A stretch of 64,000 bases of DNA, taken from positions 7,378,001 to 7,442,000 of the forward strand of contig NC_135240.1 in NCBI RefSeq assembly GCF_947623445.1. The letters are read 5' to 3'. Positions 34,682 to 38,198 of the stretch are shown one piece after another (position 1 is the first letter of the stretch; the number at the start of each line of letters is the position of its first letter). The translations under genes were made by a program, and so were the position numbers. The stretch comes from Clavelina lepadiformis. Its lineage: Eukaryota; Chordata; Ascidiacea; Aplousobranchia; Clavelinidae. Below the pieces are notes generated by a model. That model made no database searches. It was given only the letters and a program-made list of their open reading frames with translations, and was not told the DNA's origin.

Positions 34682-37600
34682 TTAGAACTGGATTTGAGAG
34701 CGGCCGCCTGGTGGCGCCAACACCTTGGTTGAAGTCACATTACCGTTTCTGGACATGGGCGAGTTAACATGCTGCCCTGTTTTGAATAGCTTTTATTTAA
34801 TATACGTAATGTGCCCTACCACACATACAACTACCATTTAAATATTACCATCGCCAATCAAAGTCTGAACTACCATACCATAATTTTTCACACAATACAC
34901 GCAGACGTATTATCATATAAATTTCTACACCAAATTGAATTTCGCCGAACAGAGCTTATGATTAGCATCTGAAGTATTAGCAAGCGATTACGGGCCATCC
35001 ATTACCTGATACATTGATTGATGATGTGTGATGCATATTTCGACCCTTGTCTGGTGTCTGTTCCGTGTTTGCCCCTCCTAGCTGAATCACTGGACCTGGA
35101 ACAGCAGAAACAAAACAATTGTTTGAGAAACAATGCAGTAGCACTTAAAATTACTTTTCAGAGTCTACTAACCGGTATAAGGATCTCTTTCCACCTTCTT
35201 AGGATCAAATGTTTCCTGACGCTTCTTTATACGATTGTATACGTAATTGCTGTACGGCTTTCTAATTGAATACAACGTGTGTGTTAAATCGAGTTAAGCT
35301 TTCACAAATGACAGCATGAACAAAAAATACAGGAAATTACAAAGTGGACAAACCTTGGAACAAACTTTCCATCACCAGCTGAAACCGTAAATTTCCCTTC
35401 CTCAAAGACCACTTTTCCACGACTAATTGTGCACACATTAACACCGTGGCACGTCATTCCTTCAAATATGTTGAAGTCTACAGCTTGATGGTGAGTTTTG
35501 GCTGAAATGGTTCTGCAAAAATAACATAAAAAACCACACTGCAGATCAAAAAATAATGGGCATTTAACTCTGACCCAGGATAACAACTGCTAATTTATCA
35601 AAACAAATCAAACAAGCAAAGCAATGTTAATCTAAACTGATAGAGTCCATTGGTGCCACCTTGTTGCGGATGGATCCCATATTATGAGGTCAGCATCAGA
35701 ACCTGGAGCGATAAGTCCTTTCTGAGGATAAATGTTAAAGATCTTTGCCGCAGTGGCACTGGTCACTTCGACAAATCGATTTTCGTCCATCTTTCCAGAG
35801 TGGACACCTTTCTGTGAAAAAAAGTCTAAATATTAGCAAATTTGTATACAAACAAATATGAGTGTGAGTTGGCACATATGTCAATGACTGTTGAAAACAG
35901 GGGGAAATTAAGTCTAAACTATTATTCATATACACTGTACCTCCCATATAACAGACATTCTGTCTTCCACACCATTCACTCCATTAGGGATCTTCGCAAA
36001 GTTATCCTTGCCCAGAGCTTTTTGGTTGGCATTAAATGTGCAGTTATCAGTGCCGGTACAATCCAAATCTCCACTGTTTATAGCAAAACAGTAAAAGTTC
36101 TTAAATACAGGGCAAATTATGCAAAACTATAAACCAGTTGAACGTTCAGTAATCATACACAAGACAAACAGCTATCTTGTAAATTTAAAACAGTTATGCT
36201 CCGGTCAAAATACATAAAAGTATTGTATACTGTATACTATATTGTACAAGTATACTGTACTTGGCCAACAAGTCCATCAGATATCCGGGTGTGGTAGGGT
36301 CTGGGCGCAAAGGTGGTCCCATGACGTGACCAGCTGCATGGCGCCAACATTTGTGGTGATAGTTGCTCCCATCGGTGCCCAGACTAGCAGCAATGGGCTC
36401 ACCGAACACTACATTACCTACATTACAAAAGTAGTATCCATAAGACCTGCAGAACAGCGTGCATTAGCTGCTAGCACATACCCTTCTTTCTAGCTTGTAC
36501 AATAACATTGGCAGCTGATTTACTCATGACATGCACGATGTACATTGGACAGTTGACCTAATAGTGAAAAATGACAAAACATCAGCAGGGCAGAGATATC
36601 TGGTTACATGCACGAAACTGATGAATATAATTACTTATGATATCATTCCAAGCAAAGCTATGAAAGGCTAATATGTTAGACACAACTTTCATAACATTCA
36701 AAAGCAAGGTGACTTAATTGGGTTGCGGCTTAGACAGTGACTCATTCTATTGTGAATTAGGCTTACAGTGTTGGCAATCATAATTGCTCTGTTGGTTGCT
36801 TCAGCTTCTACTGGTTCTGGGCGACACATTGAATGTCCTTCAGGTCCAGTGATACCAAGATCAAGCATACGTTTTTGTTCCTGCAAAATATGAAAAAATG
36901 CATTAAAACATTCCTTAATGTCTTTACATATATGATATCTATTGTGTATGGGGACACCAGTAGAGTCTAACACATACGTGAGCAATGACATCCCCATTTT
37001 CAGCGTGCATCATTGCAAGTGCTCCTATTTCTTTACATTTTTTGTAGACATCATATAGGTCCTCATCATCCAACATAAACACATCTTTGTATGCCATAAA
37101 CATCTTGAAAGAATTTATTCCCCTATTCTTCACCAATTCAGCCATCTCATCCGCAACCTGTGGTAACACTTTTGGTGAATCCTTGTGTAGAAGTACACTT
37201 AAAGATATCACAGCATCGATGTTTTCAGTGATCACAAATATACAAGTACCATAATCGCAAATGACTAACTTGCTTGCTCCACCAAGTGACAGCCACATGG
37301 AAAGAATAATCACAACAAACTTTTGGGTCGGCCCAACCTCTCCATTTGTCATAAGCTTCTAGAAGGGAAACACCTTTTTGATCGAGAACGAAATCAATAA
37401 TCATGGTCGTGCCACCAGCAACAGCAGCTTTTGTTCCCGTATAGAAGTCATCAATTGCCTGCAAAACAAATCTTTCTCAGACTTGAAGTGATAGCAACTT
37501 TACTTTTAAAGGAAAACGTCTAGATCTGGATTAGTTGAGGCATCTACTATGAGCTGAATGACTAATTTGAGAGATATCTTTCCTTCAAAACAGTGAGAAT

Positions 37601-38198
37601 AAATTTAAAGTCAGAATGAGAAGTTAGACTACATGTGTTCCCATAAAAGGAAGTTGCATGTGGGTGTGGGTATCGATTCCTCCAGGCATAACTAATTTCC
37701 CTGAAGCATCAATGACTTTTGTTCCTCCTGGAATGCTCAGATTTTTTCCAACCTGTTTGATGAAAAGGAAAGCTATTGGTTGTGTCATGAATTACATATA
37801 CAGTAATTATATGGACATTATATATATACGAAAACGTACTGCAAGAAATTGAAATACCACTCTGCTATTCATTGCATAAATCATGGCAATTAAGATTTTA
37901 TAATATCATTATGTGATTGATTTAATATTGCCACCCAAAGAACACATTCATTAGGAGATTTTAATCAGTGTATGTTTAATGTTGATTAAAATCAACCAAG
38001 TTATGTGTAACAATTCCACATAAAACTCATATGTTCTAACATTGGTCATTAGACATTAGTTAAAATCGCGTTACTTTTATATTAACATTTCACCTGAACA
38101 ATCACTCCATTTTCAATAAACACATCTCCTTCAAAAGATCGGTCCGCATTCACTACTTTTCCACCTTTGACGAGAAGACGAGTTTGGGCTGACATCAT
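34682..38198 (-). CDS. DPYS: Dihydropyrimidinase with CRMP-type C-terminal tail, 13 exons
   Basis: Exons in order: 38094-38198, 37633-37752, 37270-37458, 36978-37157, 36767-36880, 36482-36557, 36261-36417, 35941-36073, 35660-35811, 35354-35512, 35173-35261, 35006-35095, 34682-34776. Phases close: 1659 nt, 552 aa. Dihydropyrimidinase opens dihydrouracil/dihydrothymine rings in pyrimidine catabolism. All six di-zinc ligands are present, each shifted by exactly -3 from human DPYS numbering: H64 and H66 (DTHTHMQ), carboxylated K156 ([10 protein letters not shown]), H189 (MMHAENGD), H245 ([10 protein letters not shown]), D323 (TGTDNCTF). After the enzyme core the tail [13 protein letters not shown] and [12 protein letters not shown] match the CRMP RNLHQSxFSLSG and APPGGRxxI motifs. 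Retaining the last intron would instead give a short end after [10 protein letters not shown]. It therefore combines DHP chemistry and a CRMP tail. Confidence 0.93.

Follow-up and report, generated by a model that had tools for sequence, protein, structure and literature searches.

CRMPs, the brain relatives of dihydropyrimidinase, are commonly described as differing from the enzyme in two traits, a dead metal site and an additional regulatory tail. A gene on the minus strand of the window, i.e. of the whole 64,000-nucleotide stretch of Clavelina lepadiformis DNA analysed here, combines the metal ligands of a dihydropyrimidinase with a CRMP-type C-terminal tail. This raises the question of whether enzyme and CRMP are still united in one undivided ancestral gene in this ascidian, as the preliminary description of the locus proposed, or whether the tail is a property of the enzyme branch of a family that has already divided.

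Structure and surroundings of the window gene

The gene model derived from the sequence comprises 13 exons (38198..34682, minus strand) in one stop-free frame of 552 aa, and 12/12 introns are of the GT-AG type. The exons and the features that they encode are the following, "second locus" denoting the other family gene of this genome described below.

Exon 1, 38094..38198, minus strand: ATG; aa 1-35
Exon 2, 37633..37752, minus strand: aa 36-75; ligands H64 and H66 in DTHTHM
Exon 3, 37270..37458, minus strand: aa 76-138
Exon 4, 36978..37157, minus strand: aa 139-198; ligands K156 (SFKMFMAYK) and H189 (MHAENG)
Exon 5, 36767..36880, minus strand: aa 199-236
Exon 6, 36482..36557, minus strand: aa 237-262; ligand H245 (YIVHVMSK); 3' intron of phase 1, common to the second locus
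Exon 7, 36261..36417, minus strand: aa 262-314; 3' intron of phase 2, common to the second locus
Exon 8, 35941..36073, minus strand: aa 314-358; ligand D323 (GTDNC)
Exon 9, 35660..35811, minus strand: aa 359-409
Exon 10, 35354..35512, minus strand: aa 409-462
Exon 11, 35173..35261, minus strand: aa 462-492; the enzyme core ends here, and the PDB phmmer match to human DPYS stops at aa 507
Exon 12, 35006..35095, minus strand: aa 492-522; first tail exon with the T505-P-D-K site and a 13-residue CRMP-type motif; 3' intron of phase 1, placed as in the second locus
Exon 13, 34682..34776, minus strand: aa 522-552; second tail exon with a 12-residue CRMP-type end, then stop

Upstream of the coding region, a TTTTCAG at 38234-38240 of the window ends 35 bases before the ATG and could represent an acceptor, either that of a 5' UTR intron or a spliced-leader acceptor. 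Several further features were recorded elsewhere in the window, and a search of viral contigs was negative.

38433-38922: terminal repeats CAGGGGTGGCCA...TGGCCACCCCTG bound a short element that is flanked on each side by the 8-bp target duplication CCTTAGAA; it resembles a non-autonomous DNA transposon of the hAT type and lies 0.2 kb upstream of the window-gene ATG
39210-40754: another hAT-like element, longer than the first, in which CAGTGTTTCTCAACC forms the terminal repeats and GCATAGCA the 8-bp duplication; longest open stretch 103 aa
43049-44458, plus strand: single open stretch of 470 aa matching DMAP1 (PF05499, E 1.2e-64; SANT_DAMP1_like)
59628-61097, minus strand: open stretch of 490 aa, no Pfam match
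19917-20605, plus strand: two overlapping open stretches, the first with weak EF-hand matches (best E 2.2e-6)
36-587, minus strand: 184-aa open stretch that matches the SPMAP1-like sperm microtubule protein family below the cut-off (E 0.0005)

The window protein has the core and the metal site of a dihydropyrimidinase

The six metal ligands claimed for the window protein were all recovered at exactly the numbers given: residues 64, 66, 156, 189, 245 and 323 are H, H, K, H, H and D, i.e. 6/6. The ligands of rat dihydropyrimidinase are listed in PMC2999344 as H67, H69, K159, H192, H248 and D326, and subtraction of the window-protein numbers leaves a constant difference of 3.

Pfam assigned the window protein to amidohydrolase families alone (PF01979, PF07969). 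Among the best 60 of 111 matching PDB sequences human DPYS ranked first (826 bits, aa 2-507). Two chains of Tetraodon DPYS came second (824 bits), ahead of CRMP2 (700 bits), whose match extends through the tail to aa 550. Core identity amounted to 72.7% with human DPYS (PDB 2vr2) and 72.5% with Tetraodon DPYS (4h00), compared to 60.4% with CRMP2, 58.2% with DPYSL3, 56.6% with DPYSL5 and 39.8% with the second locus. In its core, its ligands and its best PDB matches the protein thus resembles vertebrate DPYS; it differs in its C-terminus, as the human PDB chain has about 9 residues past the point aligned to aa 507 and no CRMP tail.

Unlike the CRMPs compared, the window protein has an intact metal site. 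The statement that vertebrate CRMPs have lost these ligands proved correct for 4/6 positions in CRMP2, 3/6 in DPYSL3 and 3/6 in DPYSL5, but not for all of them: H189 is retained in 3/3 vertebrate CRMP rows of the alignment (from which CRMP1 and DPYSL4 were absent), DPYSL3 also keeps H64 and H66, and DPYSL5 also H66 and D323. Moreover, the N-terminal GKKNIPRI of CRMP2 and DPYSL3 is absent from the window protein in the alignment, as it is from DPYSL5.

The window protein also scored 629.5 bits with the NCBIfam dihydropyrimidinase equivalog TIGR02033, above the cut-off of 393.25. Since human CRMP5, the control, also passes (546.7), as does the second locus (413.7), TIGR02033 does not separate enzyme from CRMP and was dropped as a proof of enzyme identity. 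A set of Dictyostelium substrate residues disagreed with the sequence numbering and was likewise discarded.

Judged by its ligands and its closest solved relatives, the window gene most likely encodes an active-looking, DPYS-like dihydropyrimidinase. The protein would be expected to fold into the usual homotetramer, to hold two metal ions via H64, H66, carbamylated K156, H189, H245 and D323, and to open the rings of 5,6-dihydrouracil or dihydrothymine, the second step of pyrimidine breakdown.

The C-terminal tail is related to CRMP tails

Residues 493-552, encoded by two exons, form a tail beyond the core. That this tail is of the CRMP type was confirmed for the tail taken as a whole: alignment to the tails of CRMP2, DPYSL3, DPYSL5 and the second locus gave scores of 70, 67, 71 and 53, compared to shuffle means of 24, 26, 24 and 23, and 0/5,000 shuffles reached the score in any of the four comparisons. 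Most of the signal is carried by exon 13, which is significant alone (0, 1, 0 and 29 of 5,000 shuffles in the same order), whereas the exon-12 part alone had no significant CRMP-tail likeness, its score being reached by 713-1,337 of 5,000 shuffles. The C-terminal SG...APPGGR motifs of CRMP/DPYSL proteins are present, and the likeness to CRMP2 (8dnm), DPYSL3 (4bkn) and DPYSL5 (4b90) comprises the motifs R-N/D-x-H...SG and APPGGR, the basic character of the tail (net charge +3 in the window protein) and an S/T-P-x-K/R site, of which the window tail contains one, T505-PDK.

S/T-P-x-K/R sites occur in 5/5 tails compared, at T505 of the window protein, 522 of CRMP2, 523 of DPYSL3 (chain numbering), 514 of DPYSL5 and T524 of the second locus. 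According to PMC7325199, Cdk5 acts on S522 of CRMP2 and thereby primes the stepwise phosphorylation by GSK3; the site of the window tail aligns with S522. The GSK3-type i-4 spacing of S/T residues below the priming site was found in CRMP2 and DPYSL3 and is missing from the window tail, the second locus and DPYSL5, so that, unlike CRMP2 and DPYSL3, the window protein lacks both this spacing and the GKKNIPRI start. A proline-directed TPxK site is nevertheless kept in the window and second-locus tails without the GSK3-type spacing of CRMP2. The conservation of T505 and T524 in this state suggests that the priming site may predate the GSK3-type ladder.

An extended, positively charged C-terminus is named in PMC4051505 as setting CRMPs apart from DHPases, and the CRMP-4 tail is described there as disordered in crystals. 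Work cited by PMC7904166 has the CRMP2 tail binding microtubules and kinesin light chain. By analogy, the tail of the window enzyme should be flexible as in CRMPs. Such a flexible, slightly basic, 60-residue tail of CRMP type would perhaps serve cytoskeletal docking or act as a proline-directed phospho-switch, with T505 as the putative phospho-regulated residue.

The same genome contains a separate CRMP gene

A single own-genome search, the PF01979 profile against the genome contigs (209 Mb, 95 contigs), provides our count of family members. It identified four places, one of them the window gene. The search for a second DPYS/DPYSL locus that the preliminary description had called for was successful: another of the four places (L002) is a family member that lies about 6.5 Mb from the window gene on the same contig. 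The genome therefore holds at least two DPYS/CRMP family genes. L001 and L004 are presumably other amidohydrolases, resembling N-acetylglucosamine-6-phosphate deacetylase and a YtcJ-like protein, respectively, and no third DPYS/CRMP family member was found among the four PF01979 places. Beside its YtcJ-like amidohydrolase frame at 1474-3126, L004 carries an open frame at 94-582 on the minus strand, which by eye we take to be a Cu/Zn superoxide dismutase.

The second locus (G000:C1:13953269-13958224) was modelled with a first exon MALQSGKKNIPKIA and 10 more, all junctions being GT-AG, and encodes 576 aa. Because its frame is open throughout, it appears to be a functional gene. Of the 49 PDB sequences that matched, the highest-scoring were CRMP2 (463 bits), DPYSL3 (459) and CRMP1 (456), compared to 366 bits for Tetraodon and 361 bits for human DPYS. 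These matches cover the CRMP N-terminus (GKKNIPKI vs GKKNIPRI) as well as the tail (HQSGWSFSGEQVDD vs HQSGFSLSGAQIDD), in which the motifs HQSGWSFSG...PPGG were recognized. At the ligand positions the second locus has S, N, R, H, N and G, so 5/6 ligands are lost. Five extra residues lie beside the lost first metal ligands. In the core tree described below, its end branch corresponds to about 2 changes per site, compared to 0.24 for the window gene. By its sequence, the second locus is a fast-evolving, divergent CRMP with an N-terminus of the CRMP1-4 type, a degraded metal site and a CRMP tail of its own. The window protein shares with it the family fold as judged by sequence, the CRMP tail and three introns, and differs from it in keeping 6/6 ligands, in lacking the CRMP1-4 N-terminus and in its short branch.

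No duplicated exons were found at the window gene, and its short end is ordinary read-through

Drosophila provides the precedent for a gene that links enzyme and CRMP traits, as the window gene does; the splicing of Drosophila CRMP is reportedly the subject of Morris et al. 2012, and Tang et al. 2015 are said to have dealt with CRMP evolution. The Drosophila CRMP gene encodes a dihydropyrimidinase (PMC3650022), and mutually exclusive exons switch the zinc ligand His192 to Gly (PMC7954323). At the window gene, tblastn of the protein against the 64-kb window (E up to 10) returned the 13 exons and four weak matches (E 0.49 to 5.3), none of these within the gene, and hence no second copy of any exon in the window. 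A mutually exclusive exon pair switching a metal ligand was rejected on this ground, and because no second exon copy was found in the window, the fly-type mechanism is not seen at this gene. Unlike in Drosophila, CRMP is encoded here by a separate gene.

The second route by which the window gene had been thought to give both DHP-like and CRMP-like ends was read-through of the last donor. Past the donor at 35005 the frame runs on for nine residues (GNGWPVIAC) to a stop. However, read-through at all 12 introns stops within 1-22 codons, and intron 12 is nothing special in this respect. We rejected the short end as a special alternative terminus, since it is ordinary intron read-through of the kind that every intron gives. 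Neither route thus yielded positive evidence for two ends from one gene.

These results bear directly on the proposal that a single locus serves as enzyme and CRMP, perhaps via alternative 3' ends. The proposal was built on a single gene model that unites the enzyme ligands with a CRMP tail; this observation stands, and the 9-aa read-through end would agree with the proposal. The genome, however, contains a separate CRMP gene that has lost 5/6 ligands and groups with vertebrate CRMP2 and DPYSL3 (97/97), no second exon copy was found in the window, and read-through ends of 1-22 aa are found at 12/12 introns. A separate CRMP gene was one half of what the preliminary description had itself named as refuting evidence. 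The grouping of the second locus implies that the split between enzyme and CRMP had already occurred. With a CRMP lineage that exists separately in this genome, the idea of an undivided ancestor does not hold; we consider a single undivided gene very improbable. Rather than the undivided ancestor of the family, the window gene represents a variant within a family already known.

Phylogeny, shared introns and a probable ancestral tail

The core tree comprised 19 rows and 477 columns, with seven animal rows in which the two loci of this genome are the only invertebrate sequences. The second locus grouped with CRMP2 and DPYSL3 inside the vertebrate CRMPs with a support of 97/97 and on a very long branch, and given this long branch its position is less sure than the support values imply. 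If right, it predicts that a DPYSL5-like gene also existed, either lost or not found; no such gene was among the four PF01979 places in the genome. The window gene fell among the animal sequences, whose seven rows form one clade (99/98), and was by path closest to vertebrate DPYS. In the best tree it was basal to DPYS and CRMPs, with weak support (65/16), and it was again basal, with similarly weak support, when the second locus was left out (73/59). AU tests including the second locus rejected neither a grouping of the window gene with vertebrate DPYS (p 0.48) nor one with all CRMPs (p 0.21), and borderline rejected a grouping with the second locus alone (p 0.043). Without the second locus, the grouping with DPYS was slightly better than the free tree (p 0.51), and that with CRMPs gave p 0.39. 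The tree of the enzyme core that had been suggested as a check thus supports the affinity of the second locus with CRMP2 and DPYSL3, within the limit set by its branch length, but leaves the window gene compatible with a position next to DPYS, at the base or next to the CRMPs.

Between the two loci, three introns match in both alignment column and phase: one after RKKG (phase 1), one between LAN and G (phase 2) and one at the SG of the tail (phase 1). The remaining introns, 9/12 in the window gene and 7/10 in the second locus, are without a counterpart of matching column and phase. The shared tail intron agrees with descent from a common tailed gene, and an old transfer would be compatible with it as well. 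Together, the shared tail intron and the two shared core introns fit a tail that is likely older than the duplication and was later lost from vertebrate DPYS.

The consequences of the tree positions for the tail are different. With the window gene next to DPYS, or basal to DPYS and CRMPs, the tail would be ancestral and its absence from vertebrate DPYS a loss, while a position next to the CRMPs leaves room for one gain at a later stage. The latter position would apply if the window gene were a CRMP-side paralogue that kept or regained its metal site, the true DPYS orthologue being missing or located elsewhere in the genome. The AU tests tolerate this (p 0.21, or 0.39 without the second locus), and one PF01979 genome search could miss another DPYS. 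Nevertheless, core identity to vertebrate DPYS is 72.5-72.7% as against 56.6-60.4% to the CRMPs compared, the GKKNIP motif is absent from the window protein and present in the second locus, and the four PF01979 places include no third family member. We regard a CRMP-side origin of the window gene as quite improbable.

A later acquisition of the tail from this lineage's own CRMP gene, through gene conversion or exon transfer and not from a tailed ancestor, would account for the fact that human DPYS, Dictyostelium and bacterial PDB chains stop before the tail. It would also agree with the window-CRMP grouping permitted by the tree (p 0.21) and with most introns differing between the two genes. 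However, the tails of the two loci are very different, with a local score of 53 compared to 67-71 for the window tail against the three vertebrate CRMPs, which implies that any transfer must be old. Furthermore, two core introns are common besides the tail intron, so the shared structure exceeds the tail. On balance such a transfer appears unlikely, and it is less likely that the window enzyme gained its CRMP tail than that it kept it.

We regard an ancestral tail as the most economical history of the family. It is probable that the window gene encodes a DPYS-like enzyme with a CRMP tail, one of at least two family genes, and that it inherited this tail from an ancestor, whereas vertebrate DPYS lost it. 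The ancestral animal enzyme would already have been tailed, and its gene would have been duplicated before this lineage separated from the vertebrates. Of the two copies, one would then have lost catalysis and become CRMP, while the enzyme copy would have kept its tail here and lost it in vertebrate DPYS.

Implications for the DPYS/CRMP family

In the literature searched, with most subscription journals outside its scope, we found no report of a tailed chordate DHPase. PMC5135030 speaks of a C. elegans CRMP, and a tunicate CRMP gene was not found in the passages searched. Considering the single-gene arrangement in flies, we suspect that tailed active enzymes may be common among animals.

CRMPs form hetero-oligomers (PMC7325199), and because of this, mixed tetramers of the window enzyme and the second-locus protein are conceivable. 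More tentatively, it is possible that the CRMP tail predates the loss of catalysis, with an ancestral tailed dihydropyrimidinase that was possibly cytoskeleton-linked and phospho-regulated, and with a working tailed enzyme that could form mixed tetramers with a dead-site CRMP in this ascidian. If true, such tetramers could couple pyrimidine breakdown to the CRMP pathway.

Where a dihydropyrimidinase with an intact site and a CRMP tail coexists with a true CRMP, dead site and tail are uncoupled. For the specialist this would be a modest surprise. It allows the order of events to be tested cleanly, and it suggests that the tail came first and was then lost from vertebrate DPYS. The window protein allows tail and catalysis to be studied together.
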